The position numbers and the translations under genes were made by a program. DNA of 64,000 bases from contig JAGXFU010000004.1 of the NCBI GenBank assembly GCA_024637115.1, positions 1 to 64,000 of the forward strand, given 5' to 3'. This DNA comes from Actinomycetes bacterium (GTDB lineage Bacteria > Actinomycetota > Coriobacteriia > Anaerosomatales > JAGXFU01). Shown piece after piece: positions 13,801 through 57,034 of the stretch. Under the pieces are notes generated by a model, which saw only the letters and a list, made by a program, of their open reading frames with translations, searched no databases and was not told the origin of the DNA. Each line of letters begins with the position of its first letter. Within the stretch, counting starts at the first letter, position 1.

Positions 13801-14400
13801 CTACTCGGTCGCGCGCAGCACCTGGCGCTCAATGAGTTCACTATCAACGAACCCACGGTAGCGGTAGGTGATGTACCCGTCGGAGTCGACGAAGATCAGG
13901 TACGGCGTGAAGGAAATCCCCAGAAAATCCTCGGACATGAGGCGCGCAACACGGTTTGCGGTGTCATCCTCAAGCAGATCAGGTGAAACTGTGATCTTGC
14001 CCGTGTCGGAGATGACCACGTACGTGCCGGCGTCATACGCAACGAGTTCAATGAGTCCTCGGTAATCCTTGAGAACCGTGTCAATCTCCTCACGCTGATC
14101 ATCGGACGTCTTCTGATTGCTGTCGTAGAAGAAGACGATCATTGGCTGACCGGTATCGAGACGATCGGCGAGTTCTGATGTAATGACCTCGGAATCCGTG
14201 GGGAACGGTTCGTATGTCTGTTCCTCAAGAGCGGTCATGTCCGGCGTGGCTTCTTCATCGGTCGCCGCTGCGCCGCTTGCAGGCGGTGCCTGCGTCTGGG
14301 CAGTGACCTCACCGGACGATTCCGTATCTCCCCCGCCGCCACATCCAGCGAGTGAGATAACCATCAGTGCTACTACAAGTGCTGCGACTAGTCTGCGCAT
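13801..14400 (-). CDS. Thioredoxin-fold lipoprotein without the CXXC site
   Basis: 199 residues from an ATG at 14400 with GGAGGAAAC just upstream. A lipobox (ISLAGCGG) ends the signal peptide, so it should be anchored outside the membrane. After a Thr/Pro/Ala-rich linker comes a thioredoxin-like domain. It contains MIVFFYDSNQKTSDDQ, where thioredoxins have a CXXC helix, and later the cis-Pro strand ISFTPYLIFVDSDG. Both redox cysteines are missing, so disulfide exchange is unlikely. The position downstream of ccsB and resB suggests a link to cytochrome c maturation or surface redox proteins, perhaps as a chaperone. It may be transcribed by read-through from the 6S RNA gene ending about 30 nt upstream. 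Confidence 0.75.
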   Translation of the reverse strand: MRRLVAALVVALMVISLAGCGGGGDTESSGEVTAQTQAPPASGAAATDEEATPDMTALEEQTYEPFPTDSEVITSELADRLDTGQPMIVFFYDSNQKTSDDQREEIDTVLKDYRGLIELVAYDAGTYVVISDTGKITVSPDLLEDDTANRVARLMSEDFLGISFTPYLIFVDSDGYITYRYRGFVDSELIERQVLRATE

Positions 14401-14429
14401 TCTGTTTCCTCCGCCCGCCCGCCATAACG

Positions 14430-14604
14430 AACCCCGCCTTGCCGTGGTACGACGCGGTGAATCCCCGCCTAAGCAGGTGGGTGCCCGCACCGCCGTTTCC
14501 AGCTTCCTCCGAAGAGGATACCTGTCTGCGACGAGATGTGAGGCTCCCGTACAAGTAGTGTTGGTCCAACCGATTATGCCGAAACCACGAGCAAGGCGAA
14601 GCCC
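14430..14604 (-). ncRNA. ssrS: 6S RNA
   Basis: The RNA would be about 175 nt, the usual size. Its ends (14604-14585 and 14447-14432 on the minus strand) form a closing stem of about 16 bp: CUUCGCCUUGC-U-CGUGG pairs with CCACGGCAAGGCGGGG with one bulged U and some G-U pairs. Inside are a UUCG-capped hairpin (14505-14518) and, in the 3' half, GAAGC, AAACGGCG and GGGCACCCACCUGC followed by a hairpin and UUCACC. These are the conserved 6S landmarks as I remember them from Gram-positive and deltaproteobacterial sequences. 6S RNA mimics an open promoter and holds sigma-70 RNA polymerase. A good promoter lies exactly upstream. Synteny (aspS, 6S, rarA) matches Bacillus bsrA. No alignment or covariance search could be run. 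Confidence 0.82.
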
Positions 14605-14611
14605 TGTTTGT

Positions 14612-14661: not shown

Positions 14662-15489
14662 CTAGTTGAAATACTCAGAGTGCAGTGACGTGGTGAGCAA
14701 GGAGGTGAAGAACAGTGAGCCTACAGCGAGGGCGAAACCGATTGTGAGCAGCAGAGCTGCCGATCGACCCTTCAGGCCAAAGAATCGCCTTAGGTGAAGG
14801 TATATCCCGTATACGAACCAGGTAATGAGCGACCACGTCTCGACCGGATCCCAGCCCCAGTAGCGCCCCCAGGAGTAGTAAGCCCAGATGGCGCCCGTCA
14901 ACATGCCGATTCCCCAGAATGCGAACGTGAGCCCGGCGAATCGATAGGACTCTCGATCGAGTACGTCTCTCGAAGGCGGCGTGAATCGCTGCACGAATTC
15001 CGAGCTGTGAAACACGTAGAAGACCGATGCGCCGAGGGACATCAAAGCTGCTGCGAACGCAACGAAGTAAAAGCACACGTGCAAGACCAGCCACACGCCG
15101 GTGAATGTAGGAGGCAGCATCTGGACTTCAGGGCCGGTGTAGATACCGAGCCCGAGCACAAGGAGTGTGGCGGGATAGATGATCACCGAGAGTGATCTGA
15201 GCCGAGGAGTACGCCAGACGAGGAACAGAAACAGCGCCATCGCCATCCACGAGTTCGACGAGAGTACCTCATAGCGCGTCAGATACGGTCCGTGCGAAGC
15301 ACCATACCAGCGGAGAAGCAGCGCGCAGCTCTGGATAACAAAGCCGATTGCGGCGAGCAGATGCCCCGCCTTCTCGAGCCGTGGTTTGGACATGATCGTG
15401 CCAAAGACGGCAAGACCCACCGCAATCGCGTACGTCACCATCGCGAACAGGTGCGCGACAACTTCAGCCGATAGTGCCCACTCTCTCAT
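14662..15489 (-). CDS. ccsB: Cytochrome c biogenesis protein CcsB (CcsA/ResC type)
   Basis: 275 residues, about eight membrane segments. The Trp-rich haem-handling signature WGRYWGWDPVETWSL lies near residue 206-220, with conserved His residues in flanking loops (LVLHVCFYF and others). With ResB it forms system II, which carries haem across the membrane and attaches it to CXXCH cysteines of secreted apocytochromes. It overlaps resB by 4 bp, and resB in turn follows the giant cytochrome gene by 32 bp, so enzyme and substrate are in one operon. Confidence 0.93.
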   Translation of the reverse strand: MREWALSAEVVAHLFAMVTYAIAVGLAVFGTIMSKPRLEKAGHLLAAIGFVIQSCALLLRWYGASHGPYLTRYEVLSSNSWMAMALFLFLVWRTPRLRSLSVIIYPATLLVLGLGIYTGPEVQMLPPTFTGVWLVLHVCFYFVAFAAALMSLGASVFYVFHSSEFVQRFTPPSRDVLDRESYRFAGLTFAFWGIGMLTGAIWAYYSWGRYWGWDPVETWSLITWFVYGIYLHLRRFFGLKGRSAALLLTIGFALAVGSLFFTSLLTTSLHSEYFN

Positions 15490-16775
15490 TCACGCTCTCC
15501 GTTCGTGCCGAGTATCTGATCTCGCTCCTCATGGTACGCATGCGGCATCCGCGCCGCGCGCCAACCATAACGCACACCCACGCCTTCCTCGGCCATGACG
15601 ATCTCTCTCGGAATGAAGACGTAGATCATCAGCGAACCGAGCGCGATAACACCGAAACCAAAGAATATGACGTTCACGGCAACGGGACGCACAATGATAA
15701 GTCGCGCCCATTGGCCCTCGAATTCAAAGCTCGCAGAGTATGGTCCGAACTCAGCGCTCTCGCCCTCTTCCAGCACTACCTGGTGAATGGTTTCTCCGGC
15801 GACCACACGTAGCGCAAGCGGCTTGTCGCCGCGAGTCATCTCGGGATCCCACCGTGCTTCGACGACGGGCCATCCGTCCGGCATGACCTCGGAGTAGCTG
15901 GGCTCCCCTGCGGCAACCATGGGGAACTCGATGCGCACAGGGCTATCCGGAAGGCCTTCCGCACTCAACTCGACGAATGCCGCATCGCCAAACTCTCCGG
16001 GACTCACGTAGACAACGTATCCGTCAACACTCACGGGATAGTTCGCCGAGGCCGAGAATGGTTCCCATGTATCGCTCCCCCGCAACACCGATATCTGCGC
16101 CTCAAGCGATTTGACCTCACCGGTCGGCCACATCACGGGATCGATGCGGTCGAGCCGCACCGGAGTGCCAAACTCCGGAACGCTGCCCAGAGGACCTGTT
16201 TCCTTGTAGAGGTAGCCGGCGTCGCCGGGTTCTCGCACCTCGCCAACTGAGAAGTCGACAATCGCGGAACCTGCGAATGCCGAGGAAACAAGCGCTGCAA
16301 TCACCGCAACGACCATACCCAAGTGCATGAGAGCGGATCCCCACCAGCCGAAACGATGGCGGGCGAAGCGGCGCATGCCACCTGCGCCCGGCACTTCATG
16401 GTAGCCGGCAGCCTCGGCTCGAAGAGCAATTTCCTCGGCACTCACACCCTCAAGCAGCGTGTGCGGATCCAGGCCACCGCCGCGATAGCGGCTCGATGCG
16501 CGGCTGATCATGCTCCATGTTGCTGCGCTCAGAGACAGTGTGAAGAGCGCCAACCCGACGAGGAACCACCAGCTCGAAAAGACGTGGTCCATTTGGAGCG
16601 CACCGACTGCGGCAGCAACACCCGGATTGGCGCTCTGCCAGTCAGTGAAACTTTTGAGCGAGGTGCTTGAGCGCTGAGGCACAACCACACCGATCACGGC
16701 CGCGCCCAGGACGAACGTCATGAGCGCGACCGAGATACGGCGCGATATCAGTCTATCCAGCAGCTTCTTGTTCAC
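15486..16775 (-). CDS. resB: Cytochrome c biogenesis protein ResB
   Basis: 429 residues from a GTG at 16775. Membrane segments near 17-33 and 68-90 and around 150-170 surround a large extracytoplasmic domain (about 185-355). A final span (VNVIFFGFGVIALGSLMIYVFIP) precedes a short cytoplasmic tail. This matches the ResB/Ccs1 family, the second half of the system II haem ligation complex. The gene lies between the 2636-residue cytochrome and ccsB with very short gaps, pointing to dedicated maturation of that cytochrome. Confidence 0.9.
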   Translation of the reverse strand: MNKKLLDRLISRRISVALMTFVLGAAVIGVVVPQRSSTSLKSFTDWQSANPGVAAAVGALQMDHVFSSWWFLVGLALFTLSLSAATWSMISRASSRYRGGGLDPHTLLEGVSAEEIALRAEAAGYHEVPGAGGMRRFARHRFGWWGSALMHLGMVVAVIAALVSSAFAGSAIVDFSVGEVREPGDAGYLYKETGPLGSVPEFGTPVRLDRIDPVMWPTGEVKSLEAQISVLRGSDTWEPFSASANYPVSVDGYVVYVSPGEFGDAAFVELSAEGLPDSPVRIEFPMVAAGEPSYSEVMPDGWPVVEARWDPEMTRGDKPLALRVVAGETIHQVVLEEGESAEFGPYSASFEFEGQWARLIIVRPVAVNVIFFGFGVIALGSLMIYVFIPREIVMAEEGVGVRYGWRAARMPHAYHEERDQILGTNGERE

Positions 16776-16807: not shown

Positions 16808-19800
16808 CTACCAGTTTTCCGTGAGGCTGTTACCGGTCGAGTGATTGGTCTTGCACGCTGTTGACGTGCGCGCGTAACTCGTGAGCTGACAGTTGCTCTT
16901 AGAGTATGCAGACGGATCCGCACTCTTGGTAAAGCTTGAAATGTACATGGTTCGCTTGTCGTTGTTGTACGCGTATCGTGCCGGCATGCTGCCGTCTCCA
17001 TCGCCAAGTAGCTTGGACATTCCTCCTCCGTGGGGAATCGAAATGTGGCAGTTCACGCATGCGGCACTCCCGTGCGCGCCTTGTCCACCGCCGTGCACCT
17101 TGTTCTCCCGGACGCCGGGGTGGCAGTTCGAGCAGAACAGGTTGTCATAATCGGTGAGCAACATGTTCATGGTGATGAGCTGACCGGCTCCTGCGCCCTC
17201 GGTGGCAATCGGCCAGTCGGTACGCGGTCCACGCAGCGAGTACTCCACCGAGGAACCGTGCGGCCCCTGAGCATAGTTCTCCATGTCGGGGTCGAGCGTC
17301 GGATCCCCATTGCCATCGAGGATCACATCGCCGTTGACGTCGAGAAGCCAGGGACTTGGAGCGTTCGGGTCGCCATGACAGTCAGAGCAATACATCGTGT
17401 CGCCGACGCTCCATCCCGCAGCCAGCTGACCAGGGGTGATATTGGTAGTGCCGTAGGTCGTTGTGTCGGCGAACGCACCGTTCGGCGCAGTCACGGGATG
17501 TCGGGACTGGTTGCCCACGTTGAAGTCCGCCGCAAGATTGGTCCAGCGGTTGACGGTGACGGCAGGACTTGGCCCGGTGTAGCTTGACCAGCCATACGGC
17601 TTGGCATTACCAACGTTCGAGAGGCTGGTGATTGTTCCGCCCCAGCCCGCGAGACCGGCGTTCGCGCTGGTATGGCATTTAAAGCAGATCTCGTACTCAT
17701 AGTCCGAGTAGACCTTGCGCGACAACCTGGAGTTCACCTGGACGTCGGTCGGACGGTTCGTTGTCGCCAATGCTGCGGAGTTGAACGCCTGACCTGAGAC
17801 ACCCCGCAGGGCCTCGGAAACCGTGTTCGTGGAACCGAATTCGTGCCGTGCGTCGCCGACCACATGATGATTATGGCAATCCGCACACTCGACATGCTTG
17901 TTGGCAGGGTTGCTCAGGTATGCTTGGCTTTCATCGCCACTCGAGAGCCTGTGCTTGTTGGTGTAGAGGTACGGCTTGTGACCATATACGCTGGCATGCA
18001 TCTGCGAGTTGATCACTTCGTTGGAGACGCTCATGGGCTGCGTTCCGTACCAGTCCCAGCGACCCGATGTCTGCACTGAATCAGGCGACCTGGAATCCCC
18101 CGTGAGCAGAGTGCCGCCGTTTTCCACGAAGTCCGTCCACTGACTGTGGCAGCGGAAGCACATCTCCTCTTCGTTGATCTCAAGAGTAGCCGGTGCCGGT
18201 CCGCCGAGCGCGTTGATCAAACGCTGTTCCGCTGATGTGTGGACCGAGAACTTCCCGCTCGAGAGGGTGCCCTCAAGGTTGCCATGGCACTTGGCGCAGT
18301 TGGCTCGGAAGATCGATCCGTCGTTGAATGCGCCAGGGGCGTCGTAGTTGTGTGGCGATGCCTCGAACCAGTCGGCGTCAAGACTCCATATCTCACTCTC
18401 ATAGAGAACATTCGCCTTCTGACCTGTCTGATTGCGGACAAGTGAGGATGTATGGCAGCTCAAACACAGCGGTGCATCAGTATCCGACGCTGTCGGATTA
18501 GCATCAGTGGCACTGTTGCGCAGGCTGAACGCCTTGCCCGATCCACCCGGCAACGCCTGATACTCACTGTGATCAAGGTGGCAGGTAACACACGAGATGC
18601 TCGTGGTGTCCGTGGGATACGTCCCATCTCCAGGTGCGATCCAGGGATCAGCCGCATCGAGTACATGATGATATGAATCTGTAGCGTTCACCATATCGGT
18701 GTATGCCGAGGCCGTGTGGCAACCCGAGTTGTTGCACGACTGGCCGCCACTGGATCCGCCGTGGTTCGTGTGGGTGTGACTCGTGTGACATGCGAGTCCA
18801 GTCGCGCCGCTACCACAGCCCATGGTGGTAGCCGCCATTTCAGTATCGAGTTGGTGACATGCGGGGTTAGTTCCGAGCGTGTCACTGCCCGAAGCAGAGC
18901 ACCCTGCGCTCGCCTTGTCATGGATTGCGCGCACGTCGGTCGTGTTGTCGTGACAAGCGCCGATCGTGCAACCGCTGCCTGGTGTTGCCTGGTGCTCAGA
19001 AGCGGTTGGCCATTTGTCGTGCTTCGTCGTGTGACACGCCTCGCAGGTACCGTTGTTCCATGTTGTGTTCTTGATGATGTTGACCGAGTTCGGCGACGTG
19101 CTGTTGTGACAGTTCAGGCAGTACGGCAACGTCCAGCCCGCACGCGTGGTGTGTGCGGTCTTGAGCGTGAGCGTGTGGCAGTTCACGCATGCTGTGCTCT
19201 GCGTGTAGCCGCCGATCGATGCCGCTGCATTGCCCGCAGCGCGGTGCTTGGTCGTGTCGTCGCCGGTGAGGCCGTTGTGGTTCGTGGAGGTGAACGTCGC
19301 GCTCGTGTGGCAGCCACTCGCCTGTCCGCACGTCTTCGTAGCCGAGGTCATATCCTTATCCTTGGCATCATGACAGCCCGAGAGCGTGCAGCTGCGGTCC
19401 TTGTGCAAGGTGTGCAGGTTGTAGGTGTTGTGACACCCGTTGCCCACAGCCCCGCACCCGGCAGTGGAGCTACCGGTGACCACGGGAGCGGTCGTGGCAC
19501 TGTGCATCGCCTGATTCGCGCCCATGTCAGTGGTGTTGTGACAGTCCGCGCAGTTGCTGTTCTGCCAGCTGAGCGTCTTGACCTCAGTTGTCACGTTGGC
19601 GTTGTAGCTATGACACTCGGAGCATGTGACTTTCGCACCCCGAGTCTTGGAGCTGAACCCTGACGTCGCATCGTGGGCGTCTTTGAGGTTGAGGTCGTGA
19701 CAGACGGAACACGCCGCGCTTCCGGAGCCTCCGCCACTGAGCGTTCCGAGACCGGCGGTCGCGGTGTGCAGTGCGGTGCTGTAGTGACCGCCCGGTGTCG

Positions 19801-22800
19801 GATCGGTGAGCGGCTTGGTATCGACTGCGCCGGAGAAGGCACCTGAGTGGCACACAGCGCACTCGGCGCCGTTGTTGCCGGCCTTCCATGCCGCATTCAT
19901 TGTCGAGCTCGTGTGGCATGCGCTCGAAAGGCAGCTCACCGCGCCCGCCGGGTGGAAGGTGGTCACAGCATCTCCCGATGTGGCGCTTGAGTGACAGCCC
20001 GCGCCTGATGCGGCGCATCCGGTCTCGATGCCTTCGCCCGAGCCGTCGGAATACGCGCTCACGATGGTGTAGTCGTGGTCCGGCCCGTGGTTCGAGTCGG
20101 TCTTGTCGGTATGGCAGCCGCCAGAGCCTGAACCGCAACTCATGAGCGCAGAGCTCATGTCTTTGTCGAGCGCATGGCAGTCCGCGTTGGCACAGCCGGT
20201 TGCGGCGGTGTCGTGGATCGTGCGCACGTCGGTGGTGTTATGGCAGCCGCCGTTGGCGCAGCTCACGGCCACGCCTACCGTACCGAGGGTCGCAGTGTGC
20301 GTCCCGGTCGTGTAGGTCGTGTGGCTCGCAGTGTGGCAGTCCGCGCACACAGGGGTGGGCCAGCTCGCCTTGACCTGTATCGGGGACGCGGGAAGCGCTG
20401 TGGAGTTGTGGCAACCCAGGCTGCCCGTACCACCGCTCGAACACGACACCGCACCGATGCTGCTCGTCGCATGAGCAGCAAGCAGCGTTGAGGTGTGGCA
20501 GTCGTCACATGCGTTCTCGAAGCTGTATGCGCCGAGCGTGCTCGTCATGTTCGAGGCGGTGTGCTTCGAGTCATCGCCGTTGACCTCGCTGCCCTGTCCG
20601 ATGCTGTGGACCTTGGTGGCAGTGCTGTAGTACGCGCTCGTATGGCATCCGGACGCCTGACCGCAGCTCTTGGCGCTCGGAGCGTAGGCCAGGTTGCCGG
20701 AAACGCCGTAGCTCCAGCTCGCCGCACCCGCCGGGTCGTGGCAGGTCATGCAGTCGTTGTGGATGTTCACGCTCTTGTCCGCTCCCGCACGCGAGAGGTT
20801 TGCTGTGTTGTGGCAGCCCACACCGGTCGATCCGCAGCCGGTGTTGGTGGCGCTGTGAGCGCTCACGTTGCCATGAGCCGCGGTGATGCCTGAGCCGTCG
20901 TGGCACGCGTTGCACAGATCAGTGCTCCAGTTGCCCGTGATCGCGGTGGTCGAACCCGTGTTGTTGTGGCACTTCAGGCAACCCGAACCCGAACCCGACA
21001 TCGCAGAGGTGGACTTTGTGTGCTCGGCATTGAGGACCATGCCGTGGCAGGCGGAGCATGTGTTGCTCTGGCCATTGAGGCTGTAGGCCGCCGCACCCTG
21101 CGTCGTGCTCGTGTGCAGGCCGGCGTTGTAGTGGTTTGCCTGGGTGTAGGTGTCGTGGCATGCATCAGTGTTGCCACAGCTCTTGGCCGTCGGTCTGGCG
21201 TCGATAGTGGCGGCCTGATGGCAACCCGATAGCGCGCAGCTCGCGGCGTCTTTGTGGAGCGTGTGCACATCATAGGTGTTGTGGCAGTTCGTGCCGGTCG
21301 CACCGCAGCCCTCAGTCGATGTCGCCAGAGCGACAGGTGCCGTGATGGTGTGGTTGATCGTATGGCACTCGGCACAGTCGTTGTTGGTCCAGCTGTCCGT
21401 CTTGACCTCGGAGCTTGTGGAGCTGTGGCACTCGCCGCAGGTCACCTTCGCGCCCATAGTAGCGGCACTGAAGCCTGCACCCTGGTGGGCGTCTTTGAGA
21501 CTCAGTTCGTGGCACGTGGCACACGATGCACTCGCGGTACCACCCGCAGTCACGTTGCCAAGGCCCGTGGTGGCGGTATGAAGATCGAGATCATAGTGAC
21601 CGGCGCTGGTCTCGTCACCGAGCGCAATGGTGTCCGGAGCGCCGGTGAAGCTCCCGTCGTGGCAACGCGCACAGTCGGCATCGTCACCGCTGGTACGGAA
21701 CGCCCCGGTGAAGCTCGCCGAGGAGTGACATGCCCCGCTCACGCACCCGCTCGCAGGATGATATGCGGTTGCAGCGTCTGTGCGCAGCGCGTCCGTGCCG
21801 TGACAGCCAGCGCCGGAATTGGAGCAGCCCGTCTCTACACCCTCGCCCGCACCATCAGAGTAGTCGCTCGCGGCGTCGTATGAGTGGGCGGCGTCGTGCA
21901 TGCCGGTGTGGCAGTCGACGCAACCAGTGATCGCGGACAGGTCCGTGTCCGCATTGGTGTGGCACACATTGCAACTCGTAATCGAGCTGTCGAGGGAGTA
22001 GACCGCATCCGCGTGCAGGACCGAGACGTCACTCGTTTCGTGGCACCCGCCCTCACAGCCCGGGTTTGCCAGGTCGTGTGCAGAGCCAAGCGAGTTGTGT
22101 AGGCTGCCGTGGCAGTCCGCGCAGGCGTCGTTTGTCCAGCCGGCGGCAATCACGCTCCTGGCGTTGATCGGTGCGTTCATAGTGTGACAATCGAAGCACT
22201 CGACCGCGCCTGCGCTGAGTGTGAAGGTGTGCTCTGCCTTGAGCGAGGTGGCGTGGCAGCTCGAGCACGTCTTGTTGGCGATCGCTGTGCCCATGCCGGT
22301 CGCTGTATGGTCGGCGAGGTACGGGTCGTAGTGGTTCGGGTCGTAGGGCTGGTAGTCGTAGGTGCCGAGCACCGTGGAGTTGTGACAGTCCGTGCAGCGA
22401 GCCTCGTAGTTGTCCTGGAGGTAGTCATCGAGAGCTGCATCCGAGCGATCGTGGCAGCCATCACATCCGCCGACCATCCCACGGGTCACATGCTGCACGA
22501 GACTCGTGAACGTCGAGTGACAGGTCAGACAGTCCGCATTGTCGGTGGTGAGCGTGGGGGTCTCCTGCGTATCGTGCAGCATCGCATGATCCGTGTGACA
22601 GTCATAGCAGCTGTTCACGGTCGGCACAGCATTGGGTGTCGTATGACAGCTCTGACAGCTTGAGCCGCGAGGGCCGGTGACTGTCGCGTTGAGAGGATCA
22701 GTGTGGATGAAGTCGATCATGTCGGTGTCGTGGCAGCTGCCGCAACTCCCACCCATGGTCGCTGACCAGTCGTGCTTGGAGGCGTACTCGGCGCTCTCGT

Positions 22801-24718
22801 GAGGCTCACCCGCAGTGGCCGCGCCCGGATCGCCGGAGTCCACCACGTGGCACGCCTGGCAGGTGTTGTTCGGAACGGTGAGCCAGCCTGCCGGGAAGTA
22901 CCCGGCGGCGTGGCAGTCAGCACAGCCGATCGCTGCAGCGCCCGGATCGGTAAGCGAACTCGACTTGCCGTGCTCGGACGTGAGCTCGAGGATGTGGCAG
23001 GTGGAGCAGAGCTCTCCGCCGGTCCTGGGAACGCTCACGTTGGCGTTCGAGCCGTTGTGTGGGGGTGCCGGGTGGCTGACCATGTCAACGACACCGGAGC
23101 CAGTGTGGCATCCGGAGTCGGTGCAGTCCTTGGTCGAGGGGAACACGTCCGGGCCGTGACAGGTCAGACAGTCCGTGGCCCAGCTGTTGGAAACGAGCGA
23201 CGCATGCTGCGAACGAGCTGCATTCGTGTCGTCGTGGATGATCGAAAGGTCATTGCCGTGGCAGGCGCGACAGTCGGCCGTAGCAGCAACGCCGCCCCCG
23301 TCGTGATCTGAGTCGATGAAGTTGTGAGGCTGCTCCGAGTTCGCGAGCTGGTGACAACCGGTCACCGAGCCGTCGCCGGCCCACGTGCACGAACCGTAGC
23401 CGGTGCTCGCGGGGTTTGAGAACTCATCGAGCGCGTAATCGGCGTAGACCGTATGGCATGCTGCACAGCCCGCCGCCTCGGTCTTGGAGCTTGTGCGGCC
23501 ATGTTCTGTCCACATGCCAAGCGAGTGGCAGTCCGTGCAGTCGAATCGACCGGCCGGGTAGAGCCCGGCGGTCCGGGTCGCCTCGTGATCGAAACTGCCG
23601 CCGTGATCGGAGGCCTTGTCTGCGTGACAACTCTCGGCGCAGTCCGGCGCTATCGAATCAGGCAGCACAGAATAGGTCTTGAAACAGTCGACTGTCACAT
23701 AGTTGTACCGGGCCGAGGGATTCTTGGAGCCAGTCGCGCGCACTTCAATCGTATGAGTCCCCGCAGCGAGAATTCCTGACTCAAAGACAACTGCCTGGTT
23801 GATCGTTGTGGGTGCGTACATGTCTACCGTGGCCGCAAGCCCACCGTCGATCCAAACCTGAGCGATTCCTCGGTATGGATCCCTATCCGACACGAGGACG
23901 ACCTTCTCACCCTCGAACGTGATCGACAAACCTGCATTCGTGACATTCGAATAGGACATCCGACCGAGCGTGTACACGGGCTTGTAGCTCATCCGCCACG
24001 ACGAAGCGCTCGGTGTGAGCGCGACAACGTTCTCCGGCAGACCGTACTCGACGCTCGCGGGATGACTGAAGTTCTCTCGGGTCACAGCACCATTGTCCTG
24101 TGTGCTGGCAAGGTCGTGGCATCCGGCCGTGGCGCAGTAGTTCGTCTCGGTAGTCGCTGAATAGATGGTCTGATCGCCGTCAACCACGCCGTGGGCGACT
24201 CTGCCACTCCATGGTGACTGGACCGACGAACTGTGCGCAGCATGGGTAGCGCTCGTAGCGGACTGATGGCACGCATCGCAGCTGGCCATTGCATGGCAAC
24301 TCGCACAGCGGCTGTCTGCCGTGTCGATGTCTGCAATCCAGCGACTGGACGAATGAATGATGTGGAGCAACGCCGGATCGGTGTTGATGGACGTAGGCGA
24401 AGCGAATGACGCACCGGAAACGGGATCCGTATAGGTAGGGAGAGCAGCTAGCAGAGACTGCCCCCACCCGGGATGGCAATACGCACCGCAGTTGGCACCT
24501 GCCTGGTGATACGGATGAGTTCCAACCATGCTCGCGTTATGACACGCGATACAGGCGGTATCTCTGTCCACAGGGCCGACCTCAAACTCCACGGAAGCGC
24601 TGTGGCACGCCAGACACGTAGAATTATCCGCAGATGCAACAGAAACACCGCCCAACACCGCTGCAAAAGACAACAGAACGATGATGGCGGCTCGAGCGAC
24701 TCTGAGTCGCCTGCACAT
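16808..24718 (-). CDS. Giant secreted multihaem c-type cytochrome
   Basis: 2636 residues from an ATG at 24718 with GGGAG 7 nt upstream. The signal peptide (RRLRVARAAIIVLLSFAAVL ... VASA) ends near residue 30. By hand I count about 48 CXXCH haem sites and about 26 longer CXnCH variants (n = 3 to 13), so 48 to about 74 haems. Many Gly/Ser/Thr-rich spacers carry extra His residues that could be distal ligands (LKDAH, AEHT). One non-haem beta-sandwich insert lies at about residues 240-350. There is no C-terminal membrane span or sorting motif; the end reads NSLTENW. It should form a long haem wire on or beyond the cell surface for extracellular electron transfer. The resB-ccsB genes follow in the same operon. 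Close homologues and the true haem number cannot be determined here. Confidence 0.93.
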   Translation of the reverse strand: MCRRLRVARAAIIVLLSFAAVLGGVSVASADNSTCLACHSASVEFEVGPVDRDTACIACHNASMVGTHPYHQAGANCGAYCHPGWGQSLLAALPTYTDPVSGASFASPTSINTDPALLHIIHSSSRWIADIDTADSRCASCHAMASCDACHQSATSATHAAHSSSVQSPWSGRVAHGVVDGDQTIYSATTETNYCATAGCHDLASTQDNGAVTRENFSHPASVEYGLPENVVALTPSASSWRMSYKPVYTLGRMSYSNVTNAGLSITFEGEKVVLVSDRDPYRGIAQVWIDGGLAATVDMYAPTTINQAVVFESGILAAGTHTIEVRATGSKNPSARYNYVTVDCFKTYSVLPDSIAPDCAESCHADKASDHGGSFDHEATRTAGLYPAGRFDCTDCHSLGMWTEHGRTSSKTEAAGCAACHTVYADYALDEFSNPASTGYGSCTWAGDGSVTGCHQLANSEQPHNFIDSDHDGGGVAATADCRACHGNDLSIIHDDTNAARSQHASLVSNSWATDCLTCHGPDVFPSTKDCTDSGCHTGSGVVDMVSHPAPPHNGSNANVSVPRTGGELCSTCHILELTSEHGKSSSLTDPGAAAIGCADCHAAGYFPAGWLTVPNNTCQACHVVDSGDPGAATAGEPHESAEYASKHDWSATMGGSCGSCHDTDMIDFIHTDPLNATVTGPRGSSCQSCHTTPNAVPTVNSCYDCHTDHAMLHDTQETPTLTTDNADCLTCHSTFTSLVQHVTRGMVGGCDGCHDRSDAALDDYLQDNYEARCTDCHNSTVLGTYDYQPYDPNHYDPYLADHTATGMGTAIANKTCSSCHATSLKAEHTFTLSAGAVECFDCHTMNAPINARSVIAAGWTNDACADCHGSLHNSLGSAHDLANPGCEGGCHETSDVSVLHADAVYSLDSSITSCNVCHTNADTDLSAITGCVDCHTGMHDAAHSYDAASDYSDGAGEGVETGCSNSGAGCHGTDALRTDAATAYHPASGCVSGACHSSASFTGAFRTSGDDADCARCHDGSFTGAPDTIALGDETSAGHYDLDLHTATTGLGNVTAGGTASASCATCHELSLKDAHQGAGFSAATMGAKVTCGECHSSTSSEVKTDSWTNNDCAECHTINHTITAPVALATSTEGCGATGTNCHNTYDVHTLHKDAASCALSGCHQAATIDARPTAKSCGNTDACHDTYTQANHYNAGLHTSTTQGAAAYSLNGQSNTCSACHGMVLNAEHTKSTSAMSGSGSGCLKCHNNTGSTTAITGNWSTDLCNACHDGSGITAAHGNVSAHSATNTGCGSTGVGCHNTANLSRAGADKSVNIHNDCMTCHDPAGAASWSYGVSGNLAYAPSAKSCGQASGCHTSAYYSTATKVHSIGQGSEVNGDDSKHTASNMTSTLGAYSFENACDDCHTSTLLAAHATSSIGAVSCSSGGTGSLGCHNSTALPASPIQVKASWPTPVCADCHTASHTTYTTGTHTATLGTVGVAVSCANGGCHNTTDVRTIHDTAATGCANADCHALDKDMSSALMSCGSGSGGCHTDKTDSNHGPDHDYTIVSAYSDGSGEGIETGCAASGAGCHSSATSGDAVTTFHPAGAVSCLSSACHTSSTMNAAWKAGNNGAECAVCHSGAFSGAVDTKPLTDPTPGGHYSTALHTATAGLGTLSGGGSGSAACSVCHDLNLKDAHDATSGFSSKTRGAKVTCSECHSYNANVTTEVKTLSWQNSNCADCHNTTDMGANQAMHSATTAPVVTGSSTAGCGAVGNGCHNTYNLHTLHKDRSCTLSGCHDAKDKDMTSATKTCGQASGCHTSATFTSTNHNGLTGDDTTKHRAAGNAAASIGGYTQSTACVNCHTLTLKTAHTTRAGWTLPYCLNCHNSTSPNSVNIIKNTTWNNGTCEACHTTKHDKWPTASEHQATPGSGCTIGACHDNTTDVRAIHDKASAGCSASGSDTLGTNPACHQLDTEMAATTMGCGSGATGLACHTSHTHTNHGGSSGGQSCNNSGCHTASAYTDMVNATDSYHHVLDAADPWIAPGDGTYPTDTTSISCVTCHLDHSEYQALPGGSGKAFSLRNSATDANPTASDTDAPLCLSCHTSSLVRNQTGQKANVLYESEIWSLDADWFEASPHNYDAPGAFNDGSIFRANCAKCHGNLEGTLSSGKFSVHTSAEQRLINALGGPAPATLEINEEEMCFRCHSQWTDFVENGGTLLTGDSRSPDSVQTSGRWDWYGTQPMSVSNEVINSQMHASVYGHKPYLYTNKHRLSSGDESQAYLSNPANKHVECADCHNHHVVGDARHEFGSTNTVSEALRGVSGQAFNSAALATTNRPTDVQVNSRLSRKVYSDYEYEICFKCHTSANAGLAGWGGTITSLSNVGNAKPYGWSSYTGPSPAVTVNRWTNLAADFNVGNQSRHPVTAPNGAFADTTTYGTTNITPGQLAAGWSVGDTMYCSDCHGDPNAPSPWLLDVNGDVILDGNGDPTLDPDMENYAQGPHGSSVEYSLRGPRTDWPIATEGAGAGQLITMNMLLTDYDNLFCSNCHPGVRENKVHGGGQGAHGSAACVNCHISIPHGGGMSKLLGDGDGSMPARYAYNNDKRTMYISSFTKSADPSAYSKSNCQLTSYARTSTACKTNHSTGNSLTENW
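19382..20055 (-). repeat. Internal duplication, copy B, in giant cytochrome
   Basis: A segment of about 220 codons repeats, in the same order of motifs, a segment about 600 residues closer to the N-terminus. Matching landmarks are SDGSGEGIETGC, the FHP motif, HYSTALHTATAGLG, CSVCHDLNLKDAH, GAKVTCSECHS and CHNTYNLHTLHKD. The sequences have diverged at the DNA level, so the duplication is old. Confidence 0.75.
21230..21860 (-). repeat. Internal duplication, copy A, in giant cytochrome
   Basis: This is the partner of the segment at 19382-20055. Landmarks are SDGAGEGVETGC, YHPASGC, HYDLDLHTATTGLG, CATCHELSLKDAH, GAKVTCGECHS and CHNTYDVHTLHKD. The cytochrome appears to have grown by duplication of multi-haem blocks and not of single haem motifs. 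Confidence 0.75.
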
Positions 24719-24779
24719 ATTGAACTCCCAGTCCCATTTGCGACCCGAGTGACCCACCCCTGATCACTCCGACCTGATA

Positions 24780-28641: not shown

Positions 28642-29166
28642 CTACTCGCCCGAAGATGGAAGCAGGTCTGACTCATCCAGCGACTCGATGTTCGCTACGA
28701 CCCAGCGACCGTTGACGGGAATCAGAGTGTACTGCAGGTGATACTCGACCGCGATTTCCTCGGCAATGAGTTCACCTGTGTCGATGCTGAGTCGCCGATA
28801 GCCCCACGTCTCACGCGTCTCGACGGTGGCGGTGGACTCACCGGAATTCGACGTGCCGAACTCAATGTCGACGAGCGTGGCTTCGAGTCGCATCCGCCCC
28901 TCGCCCAGGGCGGTCATGTAGGCAAACTCGCGTTCGGCTTGGTCCTGCGTCGCGATTGGCTCCAGCACTCCCATGTCAAGCTGAGCGAATCCCTCGATCA
29001 GGAGCCGATTGTACTCGCGAATCGAAGACTCGAGATCGATCGAAGAAGGAATGTCCCGCGTGTCCACGCAGCCAGAGACGAGCAATCCGACCATCAACAC
29101 GATGAGGGGCAGGACACGTTTCAGGGCTCGCAGGCCGATGTGTCCGCGCCAGCTCTCGGCGCCCAT
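28642..29166 (-). CDS. Lipoprotein with NTF2-like C-terminal domain
   Basis: 174 residues from an ATG at 29166, 2 bp after the stop of the upstream cytochrome gene. A signal sequence (RALKRVLPLIVLMVGLLVSGC) ends in a lipobox Cys. The rest looks like an NTF2/SnoaL-like or IMS-type fold: a helix pair (IREYNRLLIEGFAQLD, EREFAYMTALGE), then strands including TATVETRETWGYRRL and EYHLQYTLI and ending in GRWVVANIESLDE. The gene is tightly coupled to the 19-haem cytochrome and followed 25 bp later by a small membrane protein. It is probably an extracytoplasmic accessory of that cytochrome. I do not recognise a specific family. Confidence 0.75.
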   Translation of the reverse strand: MGAESWRGHIGLRALKRVLPLIVLMVGLLVSGCVDTRDIPSSIDLESSIREYNRLLIEGFAQLDMGVLEPIATQDQAEREFAYMTALGEGRMRLEATLVDIEFGTSNSGESTATVETRETWGYRRLSIDTGELIAEEIAVEYHLQYTLIPVNGRWVVANIESLDESDLLPSSGE

Positions 29167-29168
29167 CG

Positions 29169-32100
29169 CTACCAATCCTCGTTGGCATTCGTGCCGCCAT
29201 GCGCCGAGCCGCATGCGGAGGTGGAGTCAACCAGACAGTCGTTTCGGGTGTCGTATGTCGTGTTCTTGCGGAAGCGCCGGATACTCGCCCCTGCGCCGAC
29301 GTAGGTTGCGGGTGTCGTGTCGGCATCAACGATCAGACGCGAGACCTTGCCACCATGCGGACGTGAGATATGACAGGAGGTACATGGGTAGCCCTGGTGC
29401 TGGCTTCTAATCTCATGTGCGGCACTGATGAAACTCCCGGCACTGTACATCGGATGACAGTTCAAGCACAGCAGGTCGGTGGCAGTTCCAGCCGCAACCA
29501 TGCTGAGCGTGTACGACGTCGTGTCATTCGCCATGAGCGGATAGTAGCCCTTGAGAACCCTGCGCGCCGTCGAGCCATGCGGACCCATGGCTGCAGGGTC
29601 TCCCGCCTTGGCGCCGTGGCAATCCGAGCAATACATCGTCATCCCCGGAGTCCAACCACCACCCAGCTGAGCCGCCGTGAGCTGGCTGGAACCGTTGTTG
29701 ATACCCGCATCTGTGACCGGGAGTGCCCCGAACACCGGATGATAGGAATCGTTCTTGGTGTTGAACTCAAGATCGACCTGAGTCCAGTTGCTGTTCCACG
29801 CGGTGAGTTGCGCGTTGCGCGAGGAGTGGCACCCCAGACACATGCCGTATTCCTTGGTGACTCCGGTAGCCGTCCATGTGTACGTCATCCCAGTAGTCGA
29901 CCACTCGGTTGCGGTCCCCTGAGCCCAGTTGAAGCCTCGCACACCCGCAAGCACCGAGGAGATATTGTTTGTCCCAATTGAATGGGTTGACGAGGATCCG
30001 TTGGTAAGCTGTCCGGTCGCGTGGGGGTTGTGACAATCTGCGCACTCAACATGCTTGTTGGCCAGTGTATTGAAGTAGGCTGAGCCCTCATCAGTGGCAG
30101 AAGGCTTGTGCAGCCCTGCATAGGTGGCAACACCGTGCTTGTAGAGAGTCGCTCCATTGGCGGGCGAGTTCACGAACTGCTGGTAGATGTTCTGGGATGC
30201 CGCGCTCATCACGGAACCCGCCGCTCCGTACCAATCGCGGTTCGCGGTGCCTTTGAGTCCGTCGGTGGAGACCGAATGGCAGCGGTAGCAGAATGCCTCA
30301 TCGGCAAAGGGACTATCCGAAACCGGAGTCGCCCGTCCGAGCGCGGCGAGAATCCTGCGAGAGCTATCCCAGTGGGTCCCAAACTTGATGCTCGACGTCT
30401 GGAACTGCTTGTACGACCCCTGGTTCTCGTCGTTGTGGCACTTGCTGCAGTTGCCCTGGAATGAGGTCGCATCGGCATAGCCCGAGCTCACCGCATACTG
30501 ATGCGCAGACGTTGCGAACGCTGAACCGGAGATCGCCGGAGTGTTCGCCGTGTTGTCAGCCCCGACCGTGTTTGCCGAGGACTTCTGATTCGCAACATCC
30601 TTGGCGCGCCCGGCGGCATGACACCCGAGGCAGATTCCATAGGGCGAAGCGACGTCATAGTCGCTATTGGTCGGAGCGGCAATACCCGCAACACTGTTCT
30701 TTCGCAGGTTGCTCGCTTTGTTGGCGTTGAACTTGTCGTGATCGACATGGCAACTCAGGCAGTACACATCGGTTCCTGAACCTGGATACGACGTAGCGCC
30801 AAAGGCAGTGTCGCCGGGCGTTCCCGCCTTGCCGAGCACATGATGATAGTAGAGGGTCCGACTCGAACCGTTGTACTCCATGGGAGCCTCATACACACTG
30901 TGGCAGCCGTAGCACGCCTCTCCACCCTCGGAGACGCCGCCGCTGGGGTTGTGAACGTTGCTGCCGCCCGCGGCGTAGCTGCGACCATGACACGTGTAGC
31001 AATTCTGTAGGTCGCCCTGATAATGGCCGCTCGTGACCGGGATCCTCAGGCGGTTCACTCCGGTGGCATTGGACTGGCCCGCCAGCAGGGTGCCGTCGCG
31101 GCGCAGGCCCTCTACCCGGGACGTGGTCCCAACCGGAATGTAGGCCCCCGACACAGAATCCCATCCGGCTGTCGTGTCGCACGTTGAATGACACGTGAAG
31201 CAGAACCGCCTCACGGCCGCGTTATCGGCCGCGGATGTGCCGGTCGACGTTGGGGACAGATTCTGCCCCAGTTCATCGGATATGAGCATCGTGTTGCCGC
31301 GCGAGGAACCATGCGGGTTATGACAGTCGTAGCACGGGAGCGGAGCCCCGAGAGGTAGGGTGCCTCCGCTTGTTTCGATGCGGTGACCCGACCGTTCTTT
31401 GCCAGCCGCCACAAACTGCTTGACGTTGACAGGAAGCGTCGTGAACTCGGATCGCAAGACCCCGCCGTGGCAATCAAAACAACTGGCTGCGTAGGTACCG
31501 TTCGTCTGATCATCAACCACCGACGTCGGCGATGACGGCGTGAACAACTCAACCAGAGCGTCATAGGCATTCGCAGCACCGTGCGATGCATGGCAATACA
31601 GGCAATCGCCCGATTGCCGGACCGTGCCCGATGCAGGAATCGACGCGTGCGCGTTCTTGGTCGAGTCTTCGTAGACCGTACGACCGGGGAAAGTCCCAGC
31701 ATCAGGATATCCATTGGAAAGCCGAACTGGCAGTGAGAGCAACGGATAGGTGCCAACGTACCAATCGCTTGAGTCGTTATGACACGCGAGACACCACGTG
31801 TTGTCAGCACCATCCACATCGGCGCCATTGATACTCTTGCTCGGAAGATATCTGCTGCTCGCACTGTACGAGAGGTGGGGGTTGTGGCAACCCGAGCACT
31901 GGTCGGTCAGGTCACCGCCGCTGCCGGACGCTTCCACAGTATGACCACTTGCCAGCGCAAAGGAGTTCTCCGGCCCGGAGATGATGTTCTTGGATGCACC
32001 TTGGCCGTCGTGGCATGCACTGCAGACCGCCAACTCACCAGAAGTGCTGCCGGTCTGACGCATGAGCTTGCCTTCTTCGGCAGCAGCATGCGGCGTATGG

Positions 32101-32585
32101 CACAGCTTGCAATACGAGCCGGTGCCTGTATACGTCGCGTGCGGCAGCTGAGACCACGTCGCGCGAACGGGACCAACGAGCGATGATCGTGACGAGGTGT
32201 TTCGCGCGGCATCGAACGCAGCCACGCTGTAGTAGTAGTCCTGACCCGGAACACCCGTCTGATCGAGGAAGGCCAGAGCGGCAACCTCGCCCGCCAGAAC
32301 GGGAGATGCCGTGGTAGTCACGGCACGATAGACGTAATAACCCTCAACTGCAACGTCGTCAGTCGAGGCATTCCAGGTCACAGTGGCAACGAGGGGCGCG
32401 GCGCCACCGGCCATGGCCGCAACACCTGTAGGCGTCGACGGCGGCGCCGTGTCTGCGGCCAGCGCGGCAAGCGGGAATGCCAAGACAAGCGCAGCGCACA
32501 CAGCGCAGCACATTAGACCGAGACTCATGGGACGTCGAGAACGTCGCAATTGACCTCGCATTTTCATATCAGTTGGCAGTCTCAT
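29169..32585 (-). CDS. Secreted 19-haem c-type cytochrome with FN3-like domain
   Basis: About 1138 residues if the ATG at 32585 is used; the start is uncertain because no clear ribosome site is seen, and 32561 is an alternative. A basic signal peptide (RRSRRPMSLGLMCC ... AALAAD) comes first. A fibronectin type III-like domain follows (about 45-140, including GYYVYRAV and YYYSVAAFDAARN). After that come 19 CXXCH motifs by hand count, several in the CHNPH or CSDCHG contexts of doubled CXXCH cytochromes. The C-terminal part (CTSCHISRPHGG to the terminal NEDW) matches the end of the giant cytochrome. It should be a surface electron carrier. Downstream are a lipoprotein and a membrane protein. Confidence 0.92.
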   Translation of the reverse strand: MRLPTDMKMRGQLRRSRRPMSLGLMCCAVCAALVLAFPLAALAADTAPPSTPTGVAAMAGGAAPLVATVTWNASTDDVAVEGYYVYRAVTTTASPVLAGEVAALAFLDQTGVPGQDYYYSVAAFDAARNTSSRSSLVGPVRATWSQLPHATYTGTGSYCKLCHTPHAAAEEGKLMRQTGSTSGELAVCSACHDGQGASKNIISGPENSFALASGHTVEASGSGGDLTDQCSGCHNPHLSYSASSRYLPSKSINGADVDGADNTWCLACHNDSSDWYVGTYPLLSLPVRLSNGYPDAGTFPGRTVYEDSTKNAHASIPASGTVRQSGDCLYCHASHGAANAYDALVELFTPSSPTSVVDDQTNGTYAASCFDCHGGVLRSEFTTLPVNVKQFVAAGKERSGHRIETSGGTLPLGAPLPCYDCHNPHGSSRGNTMLISDELGQNLSPTSTGTSAADNAAVRRFCFTCHSTCDTTAGWDSVSGAYIPVGTTSRVEGLRRDGTLLAGQSNATGVNRLRIPVTSGHYQGDLQNCYTCHGRSYAAGGSNVHNPSGGVSEGGEACYGCHSVYEAPMEYNGSSRTLYYHHVLGKAGTPGDTAFGATSYPGSGTDVYCLSCHVDHDKFNANKASNLRKNSVAGIAAPTNSDYDVASPYGICLGCHAAGRAKDVANQKSSANTVGADNTANTPAISGSAFATSAHQYAVSSGYADATSFQGNCSKCHNDENQGSYKQFQTSSIKFGTHWDSSRRILAALGRATPVSDSPFADEAFCYRCHSVSTDGLKGTANRDWYGAAGSVMSAASQNIYQQFVNSPANGATLYKHGVATYAGLHKPSATDEGSAYFNTLANKHVECADCHNPHATGQLTNGSSSTHSIGTNNISSVLAGVRGFNWAQGTATEWSTTGMTYTWTATGVTKEYGMCLGCHSSRNAQLTAWNSNWTQVDLEFNTKNDSYHPVFGALPVTDAGINNGSSQLTAAQLGGGWTPGMTMYCSDCHGAKAGDPAAMGPHGSTARRVLKGYYPLMANDTTSYTLSMVAAGTATDLLCLNCHPMYSAGSFISAAHEIRSQHQGYPCTSCHISRPHGGKVSRLIVDADTTPATYVGAGASIRRFRKNTTYDTRNDCLVDSTSACGSAHGGTNANEDW

Positions 32586-32753
32586 GTTGGTTGAAATCGT
32601 GCCCGTCTCAGGGCATCGGTCGGATACCGTCAGGCACACTCATGCCAGTGTGTTCGCATGGCGCGGCACAGCGTTAGCGGCAATCGCTCGACAAGGACAA
32701 GGTGCGCGCACGAGCGGATGAACCGCTGAAAGTAAGTCTCCTCCGAACCACGT

Positions 32754-55207: not shown

Positions 55208-57034
55208 TCAGCGCAGAAGGTCTAATCGCGATACTGACATCCCGAGGATCCACCCTCGTAGCAGGCGACCTGTCACGCGCACACGGCTTGGCTGCACGTG
55301 CGAGGCGGTGTCACTCGTCGTGTGGTACACCGGATCGTCTCGCCACTCAAGCCATGCTGAAGGAATTCCCGCGAGTTCGAATGAATCGTGATCGCTCCAG
55401 CCCGGATCCCTGAGATAGACAAGCCGCTGACCCACGTACGACGCCCGAGACTCGAGCGAACGGACCGCGGATTGAGGGCCCACCCCGAGACTTCTCACAT
55501 TGAACGTGGAACCGTATCCCACCATGTCGATCGAGACCATGCCTTGAATGCGCGAGCGTGCGCTCGACGAAAGCGCGGACACATACTGCTTGGATCCGAA
55601 GTGGTGGTCATTCGCGGTCGCCCCGCTGATCTCCTCGGCACCAAAGGCGATGAAGCGCACGGTCGGAGTGACGGGTGCCTGCGCAAGCAGCCGCGCAAGC
55701 TCAAGCATGACAGCCACTCCAGAGGCGTTGTCATTCGCACCCGGGGACGGAGATTTCGAGTCGACATGGGCGCCCAAGACAAGCACGCCCGACTCGCTGC
55801 CGCGCTTCTCGGCAATCACGTCGCGAGAGGTCTTGCCGCCGGGAAGATAGATCGTCTGCGTGGAGACCACATATCCGTAGTCGCGCAGCTCGTCTGCGAT
55901 GTAGTCGAATGCGGCGCCTTCTGCGCTTCCACCTGCCGGGCGCGCCCCCAGCGCGGCAATCGCTCGCACGTGACCCATGGCGCGGTTCACCTCAAACGGA
56001 GGGGTTGCTCGAGCAAGCACGGCCTCCTGGCGTACGTGTGAGGGAACAGCGCTGCTGCCACCGAACACTGTGAACGCTGCAACACGGTGGTATATCCAGC
56101 GAGATACGCTGTCCGGAACCTCATGCGGAGCCACGAGGATCAACGGCTCACGTCGCAAGGCCAGGTACGGCCCGCACGACGCCGCGTCAGCCCAGTCGTA
56201 TCCGGTTGCCACACCGACTCGTTCGTAGCCAAAACCCAGCTCCCGATCTGCGAACTCGGCAATTCGGGTCGCGGTGGAGAAGCGTGTGGCCCCACCGATG
56301 CGATCGACATGTGGCGATCCGCCCAGTTCTTGCATCAGCAGACCCGCAAAGGAGTCGGAAACCGCCTCGGCGCCGCCGAGCAGGGTCACGTCGGTGATTC
56401 CCGCGGCTTTGATCGAATCGATGGTCGCCTCATAGCGGCCCGGGTCCGTCAGATAGACCGGGTCCGCGGTTGCTGCGGCAACGGGACCGATGCTGAGGGC
56501 GTCGGCGAAGTTACGACCGGTGGTCACGAACGCGTGACCGCTCGGTGTCCCCTGAAGATCAAGCGTAGCCGAGGCAACCCTCGACGCGGTGGCGTACCTG
56601 TCTCGTCCTGCTATCCGCACGATATCGTCGGCATCGATGCCGAGCTTCTCGATCACCGCAAGAGACCTGTCTGAGATTGCGCGTTCGCCACCGAGAACAT
56701 AGACGGTATCCGGCGAGAGCGCCTGAATGGTCGCCCGGGTCGTCGCCGGAACCGTCCATCGTGTGGTGAGCAGGATGGGAGCAGCAACGGCTCCGGCCAA
56801 TGCGCTACCACCAACAGCATCAGGCCACGCCTGACCGGTGGTGAGCACGACAGATGAGCAGCCGTCCGGATACGCTGCGCGCGCAATAGCCGATGCGGTC
56901 TCATAGCGGTCGGCGCCTGCAAGCTGATCGAGCCTGGCGAGCGCTTCGGTCCGCGCAGCGAGGCTGGATTGAGGGACCAGCAAGGCCACAACACAAACCA
57001 CACAGAGAATCGCGCTCATGGTGCGTGAATACAC
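55208..57034 (-). CDS. Surface M28 aminopeptidase with CWB2 repeats
   Basis: 608 residues from a GTG at 57034 with AGGAG 6 nt upstream. A signal peptide is followed by three cell-wall-binding repeat 2 units (about 35-340) with the repeated patterns RLAGADRYETASAIA, VYVLGGERAIS, RIAGRDRYATASRVA and VTLLGGAEAVSDS. The C-terminal part is an M28 zinc peptidase: VLGAHVDSKSPSPGANDNASGVAVML and FGAEEISG supply metal ligands and the catalytic Glu, with SIDMVGYG and WSDHDSF further on. CWB2 repeats hold proteins to secondary wall polymers in Gram-positives, so this is a wall-bound peptidase. It follows ruvB by 93 bp but is probably transcribed separately. Confidence 0.93.
   Translation of the reverse strand: MYSRTMSAILCVVCVVALLVPQSSLAARTEALARLDQLAGADRYETASAIARAAYPDGCSSVVLTTGQAWPDAVGGSALAGAVAAPILLTTRWTVPATTRATIQALSPDTVYVLGGERAISDRSLAVIEKLGIDADDIVRIAGRDRYATASRVASATLDLQGTPSGHAFVTTGRNFADALSIGPVAAATADPVYLTDPGRYEATIDSIKAAGITDVTLLGGAEAVSDSFAGLLMQELGGSPHVDRIGGATRFSTATRIAEFADRELGFGYERVGVATGYDWADAASCGPYLALRREPLILVAPHEVPDSVSRWIYHRVAAFTVFGGSSAVPSHVRQEAVLARATPPFEVNRAMGHVRAIAALGARPAGGSAEGAAFDYIADELRDYGYVVSTQTIYLPGGKTSRDVIAEKRGSESGVLVLGAHVDSKSPSPGANDNASGVAVMLELARLLAQAPVTPTVRFIAFGAEEISGATANDHHFGSKQYVSALSSSARSRIQGMVSIDMVGYGSTFNVRSLGVGPQSAVRSLESRASYVGQRLVYLRDPGWSDHDSFELAGIPSAWLEWRDDPVYHTTSDTASHVQPSRVRVTGRLLRGWILGMSVSRLDLLR

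Follow-up and report, generated by a model that had tools for sequence, protein, structure and literature searches.

How a bacterium of the Coriobacteriia comes to encode a single exported chain with 74 candidate haem sites, and what such a chain might do at a Gram-positive surface, is the question that this locus raises. In the window (the whole stretch of 64,000 nucleotides analysed, from an Actinomycetes bacterium of the order Anaerosomatales), the gene of this giant multihaem cytochrome lies at 16808..24718 on the minus strand. Its open reading frame spans 16808-24757 when taken from the first GTG; the ATG at 24718, with GGGAG six bases 5', opens a frame of 2636 residues that begins with a signal peptide and runs without an internal stop codon to the stop at 16808, which bears out the original prediction of a 2636-residue multihaem cytochrome. 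Similarly long open frames occur in several relatives, and the giant is real, large, and well conserved. What we add to the first reading is a family, evidence on the long-spaced haem sites, a jelly-roll module, and a proposed origin by fusion.

By script, the protein has 48 CXXCH motifs among 74 CH dipeptides, each of which has a cysteine 2-13 residues upstream; the remaining 26 sites thus have spacings of 3-13 (three CX3, ten CX4, three CX5, six CX6, and one each of CX8, CX9, CX10, and CX13), so that an earlier hand count of about 48 and about 26 proved exact. Haem motifs take up 148 of the 152 cysteines, and shuffled sequences contained a mean of 0.6 CXXCH (maximum 5) and a mean of 9.5 CH. 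The mature chain is 269 kDa, to which haem would add about 46 kDa if every site were filled. Two claims of rank did not survive. With one site per 35.6 residues the giant does not stand out as one of the most haem-dense chains, as another protein of the source genome, of only 642 aa, has 29 CXXCH; nor does it lead in haem number, since the published giant cytochromes of ANME-2/3 and Methanoperedenaceae (MHC-A/B/C) have up to 86 (PMC9012536) and 113 haems (PMC7082337), relatives of the giant have 61-107 sites, and a record was accordingly rejected. The giant is exceptional in size, but neither a record nor the first of its kind. The denser 642-aa cytochrome (L072:6460-8388; contig C1 of the source genome, ~89.5-91.4 kb) has ~22 residues per haem and lies downstream of a 386-aa relative with 15 CXXCH. 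Statements about the source genome as a whole rest on searches and selected stretches; such a search gave 683 DNA matches coding CXXCH, as compared to 164 with a reversed control pattern.

The only hydrophobic segment of the giant is its signal peptide (residues 1-30, 24629..24718, minus strand, ending VASA before DN), which is of the signal-peptidase-I type and has no lipobox. A scan of the sequence found no second hydrophobic segment after residue 31 and no LPXTG, and a Pfam search of the giant returned cytochrome domains only. The protein thus has the makeup of a multihaem c-type cytochrome, with 48 CXXCH and 26 CX3-13CH in an exported chain, and the earlier description of a single secreted chain holds.

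The count of 74 depends on whether the long-spaced motifs bind haem. System II synthases are known chiefly for CXXCH, and smaller cytochromes linked to the corresponding resB-ccsB pair in related genomes have almost no long motifs, as would fit if only the 48 CXXCH held haem and the other 26 were disulphides or metal sites. We aligned residues 1-940 of the window protein with those of eight relatives. The CH of each of the 25 sites as far as residue 869 is kept in nine of nine, and the upstream cysteine is missing from a single site of a single protein only. The spacing at certain of these conserved sites drifts, however: CX2, CX3, or CX4 at site 360; CX4, CX10, or CX13 at site 444; CX2, CX4, CX5, or CX7 at site 659; and CX2 or CX4 at site 704. 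Such drift speaks against a separate role for the longer motifs, and so do the histidines. A bis-histidine haem needs one additional histidine, and among 61 cytochromes of the fetched loci the number of non-motif histidines rose by 1.10±0.03 per CX2CH and by 1.16±0.07 per CX3-17CH, over a background of 0.41 per 30 other residues; in the 22 giants alone the slopes were 1.17 and 1.18, respectively. As the 61 cytochromes are mutually related, these errors are underestimates; the two slopes nonetheless agree, and each long motif is accompanied by about one extra histidine. OmcZ provides a structural precedent, as one of its haems sits at a motif whose loop has 14 residues (PMC9473688). We therefore regard a restriction of haem to the 48 canonical motifs as very unlikely; judged from the alignment and the histidine counts, most of the 26 long-spaced motifs, and with them most of the 74 sites, are probably real haem sites. 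A count restricted to CXXCH would then miss about a third of the haems of such proteins.

The chain is modular. Its N-terminal module (residues 31-940, 21899..24628, minus strand) has 28 haem sites. The central haem repeats that follow (residues 941-1976, 18791..21898, minus strand) have 36, of which 19 are long-spaced, and self-comparison revealed two copies of a repeat within them (residues 936-1196, 21131..21913, and residues 1535-1814, 19277..20116, both minus strand) that are ~50% identical. The C-terminal module (residues 1977-2636, 16811..18790, minus strand) has 10 sites and ends in ENW. As far as about residue 1960 the giant is most closely related to other giants; from about residue 2000 onward its closest relatives are cytochromes of ~1085-1180 aa with 19 haems and almost no long-spaced motifs, referred to here as W-tail cytochromes; the nearest relative changes sharply at residues 1960-2010. 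Over the last 660 residues, identity per window is 60-82% to the C-terminal part of a 1179-aa, 19-haem cytochrome of genome G003. The window encodes a cytochrome of this class as well, a 1156-aa open reading frame with 19 CXXCH (29169..32639, minus strand), next to a 190-aa putative lipoprotein (28642..29214, minus strand) whose counterparts in related loci lie with W-tail cytochromes and resB-ccsB. After the last haem, giants and W-tail cytochromes share PH(G/A) and a basic stretch ending RL(L/I) (e.g., window 16811-17100), followed by C..C..H, with W or WP at the very end. That this ending is a general sorting signal was considered and rejected, as among the loci read it occurs only in cytochromes, the sole non-cytochrome with a similar end being one NlpC/P60 protein whose match looks like chance.

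Directly downstream of the giant gene, in the same direction, are resB (15486..16775, minus strand; PF05140, 76.4 bits against a cut-off of 24.6) and the gene of a CcsB-type haem lyase subunit (14662..15489, minus strand; PF01578, 111 bits, above cut-off; TIGR03144, 157 bits, below the equivalog cut-off of 187.6), so that both domains expected of System II cytochrome c maturation are present. In eight genomes (G003, G012, G005, G013, G024, G026, G066, and G015) it is a W-tail cytochrome that directly precedes resB, with ccsB after it counted where the locus reaches far enough, and the CcsB of the window is 69% identical to that of G003. Because the C-terminal 660 residues match the very G003 cytochrome that precedes resB-ccsB, the giant gene appears to be a fusion of a giant's N-terminus to a W-tail cytochrome within its operon, which is the simplest history that these comparisons suggest, and the linkage to resB-ccsB was probably inherited with the old W-tail cytochrome gene. 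One could instead suspect that the assembly, a draft of 17 contigs, joined a giant and a W-tail cytochrome gene by mistake, and the sharp switch of nearest relative at residues 1960-2010 would fit such an error. Yet the DNA across the junction occurs only once in the genome, the N-terminal half of a W-tail cytochrome is not found stranded anywhere else, and an independent 2755-aa protein of G043, which adjoins a lipoprotein, resB, and ccsB, is collinear over the whole length and has the W tail; a chimera is for these reasons highly improbable.

Beyond ccsB, a 6S RNA (Rfam RF00013, 53.8 bits) lies at window positions 14427-14605 on the minus strand, before the next gene. The longer open reading frame of that gene overlaps the RNA, and we therefore corrected its start; it probably begins near 14400 and encodes a putative lipoprotein (13801..14400, minus strand) that weakly matches a thioredoxin fold and lacks CXXC.

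The original prediction had called the adjoining genes the giant's own system II set. The linkage is real, but the corresponding pair follows smaller cytochromes in related genomes, and the source genome also holds a second resB-ccsB pair as well as System I, with CcmE, CcmF, ABC ATPase, CcmB, and CcmC-like genes in one stretch (L071; C9:158000-172000). It thus combines Ccm with two System II pairs, and either system may load the giant. A maturation system specific to the clade and to long-spaced motifs was rejected: CcmF-like genes occur in every one of the order's 69 genomes and ResB in 61 of them, and neither tracks the giants.

Within the N-terminal module is a domain without haem motifs (residues 240-352, 23663..24001, minus strand). 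AlphaFold2, given this segment with 48 homologous domains, returned a jelly roll with a pLDDT of 93.4, for which the Foldseek matches were the xylan-binding module MiXBM (7ehg, TM 0.74, E 6e-6) as well as CBM6, CBM35, CBM36, and a glycosyl hydrolase domain; PDB profile searches likewise led to carbohydrate-binding modules. No Pfam model reached its cut-off on the giant's own copy, and sister copies match CE2_N. Tandem copies of the domain are also part of an L,D-transpeptidase and an NlpC/P60 protein from related genomes, as well as of a 2171-aa NHL/Ig-like protein encoded in the source genome. Because it resembles carbohydrate-binding modules and is common to peptidoglycan-active proteins, it is plausible, given the modelled fold, that it holds the cytochrome to glycan, although the domain is common to other surface proteins as well, whose use of it may differ. 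The giant had been described as having no wall anchor and no membrane span; LPXTG and membrane spans are indeed absent, but with a CBM-like domain in the chain a claim of no wall attachment is too strong. Elsewhere in the window, an M28 peptidase (55208-57034, minus strand) has three CWB2 wall-binding repeats, from which it follows that the organism uses CWB2 anchoring for other proteins. AlphaFold2 on the N-terminal 940 residues (nine sequences) reached a pLDDT of 32, and this model was discarded.

A search of Coriobacteriia genomes showed the giant to be a member of a family rather than a singleton: some match to it was found in 57 of 69 genomes of the same order, and where relatives come from named records, these are Coriobacteriia or Actinomycetota MAGs. 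The full N-terminal module was found at nine loci in eight genomes, belonging to five families of the order; in a sample of 400 genomes from the class, none beyond the order had it, and nearly all matches listed there were to the jelly roll only. As most genomes of the order do not have the full module, it is not essential to the respiration of the clade. Counts among the relatives include 61 (the second copy in the source genome), 61, 52, 80, 79, 68, and at least 107 sites, and the family can serve as a natural series in which haem repeats were gained and lost. The cytochrome frame at L018 (G031:C40) is open at the contig end, with at least 4305 aa, 68 CXXCH, and 39 long-spaced motifs, and G051:C19:1-52000 (L020-L022) encodes three giants of ~2816, 3357, and 3100 aa within ~45 kb.

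The partners of the giants recur too. Most giant loci read include an NHL-propeller gene and a gene for a 6-CXXCH cytochrome, four include a TPR protein, and several include a large NHL protein, which in G064 has CWB2 wall-binding repeats; glycosyltransferases or a sugar transferase accompany giant loci, and polysaccharide glycosyltransferases adjoin them. A cassette of giant, TPR, NHL propeller, hexahaem, and large NHL genes beside glycosyltransferases recurs at L016, L027, L076, L077, and L050.

We consider the giant, with somewhat better than even confidence, to be an exported electron conduit for extracellular electron transfer, retained at the surface of this Coriobacteriia bacterium in wall or polysaccharide. 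The motif numbers, their conservation, the modular makeup, the synteny, and a confident jelly-roll fold model are established; we infer haem filling and ligation, location, sugar binding, and conduction with its direction. Its signal peptide indicates export by the Sec route, and haems would be attached outside the membrane, probably by the adjoining ResB-CcsB, with System I (Ccm) genes also present. The 48 canonical motifs and the majority of the 26 long-spaced ones would bind bis-histidine-ligated haem, and the resulting row of up to ~74 haems would pass electrons, presumably outward, from membrane-side cytochromes. The jelly roll, judged by its fold, may retain the chain in wall glycan or capsule, and electrons would hop along the haems to minerals, electrodes, or partners, as suggested by the family and by a cultivated relative in the class that reduces Fe(III). 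In the layout of OmcZ eight haems take 58 Å (PMC9473688), so that 74 haems laid out in that manner would span at most ~54 nm; this is an upper bound rather than a model, and would be enough for a Gram-positive wall. The giant as wire is plausible.

Alternatively, one could envision the giant released from the wall, its jelly roll binding exopolysaccharide, minerals, or partner cells and the chain wiring a biofilm. The likeness of the jelly roll to polysaccharide binders, the polysaccharide glycosyltransferases beside related giants, and the lack of a covalent or membrane anchor would all suit such a role, but the same module in an L,D-transpeptidase and an NlpC/P60 protein points to the glycan of the cell's own wall, as does the CWB2 NHL protein encoded next to one relative, and we think this unlikely. 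It is less likely still that the haems serve mainly as a capacitor, storing electrons at the surface while an acceptor is absent, with the order of the chain irrelevant. The very high number of sites, the irregular repeats, and the variable length among relatives could be read in this manner, and large cytochromes have been proposed to store charge (PMC7399161); however, the exact conservation of sites in the N-terminal module suggests a fixed geometry, with which storage as a second function would still be compatible. To extend the surface-retained conduit to the whole clade, as a monoderm-type lineage that builds single-chain haem wires of ~40-110 sites, about a third of them long-spaced, held in wall glycan by a CBM and altered in length and end modules through duplication and fusion, is a generalization that we offer tentatively and regard as possible but doubtful.

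Like the giants of ANME-2/3 and Methanoperedenaceae, the window protein is a very large exported chain with tens of haem motifs and a proposed role as an envelope electron carrier. Those proteins come from archaea, and many of them are linked to the S-layer and carry a transmembrane helix at the C-terminus; the non-haem surface domains fused to them are S-layer, peptidase-like, or pectin-lyase-like. The window giant, in contrast, is bacterial, has a CBM-like jelly roll and no transmembrane helix, and has about a third of its sites long-spaced. OmcS, OmcE, and OmcZ of Geobacter also place rows of bis-histidine haems outside the cell, and OmcZ shares the long-spaced motif (PMC9473688), but they are small subunits that polymerise into filaments; a sequence relation to them was rejected, as none was matched by phmmer with the whole giant or by the profile of the linked hexahaem cytochrome (PDB). 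With MtrC/MtrF and the Gram-positive OcwA/OmhA the likeness is in the C-terminal module, which matches Pfam Mtrc-MtrF_II-IV above cut-off (PF22113, 63.7 bits against 30, residues 2077-2195 only). Those proteins have ~9-12 haems as compared to ~74 sites, and MtrC is an outer-membrane lipoprotein; with its 74 sites and no lipobox the giant is not a decahaem lipoprotein of the MtrC/MtrF family, nor does it reach the cut-off of the DmsE family decahaem model (TIGR03508, 56.6 bits against 192.2). Closer to home, cultivated Anaerosomatales have 17-18 multihaems, and one of these organisms is an obligate Fe(III) reducer (PMC9686372); large multihaems in uncultivated Coriobacteriia/Anaerosomatales have been inferred to serve Fe(III) or electrode respiration (PMC5520028, PMC7399161, PMC9686372), in reports that do not describe the giant family, the jelly roll, long-spaced motifs, or modular fusion. 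How electrons pass across a thick Gram-positive wall is poorly known, and the Gram-positive carriers studied experimentally have ~6-12 haems (PMC9012536, PMC7829351); with its 43-107 sites per chain, its sugar-binding-like domain, and partner genes that can be recognised, this bacterial family provides concrete proteins with which to test it.
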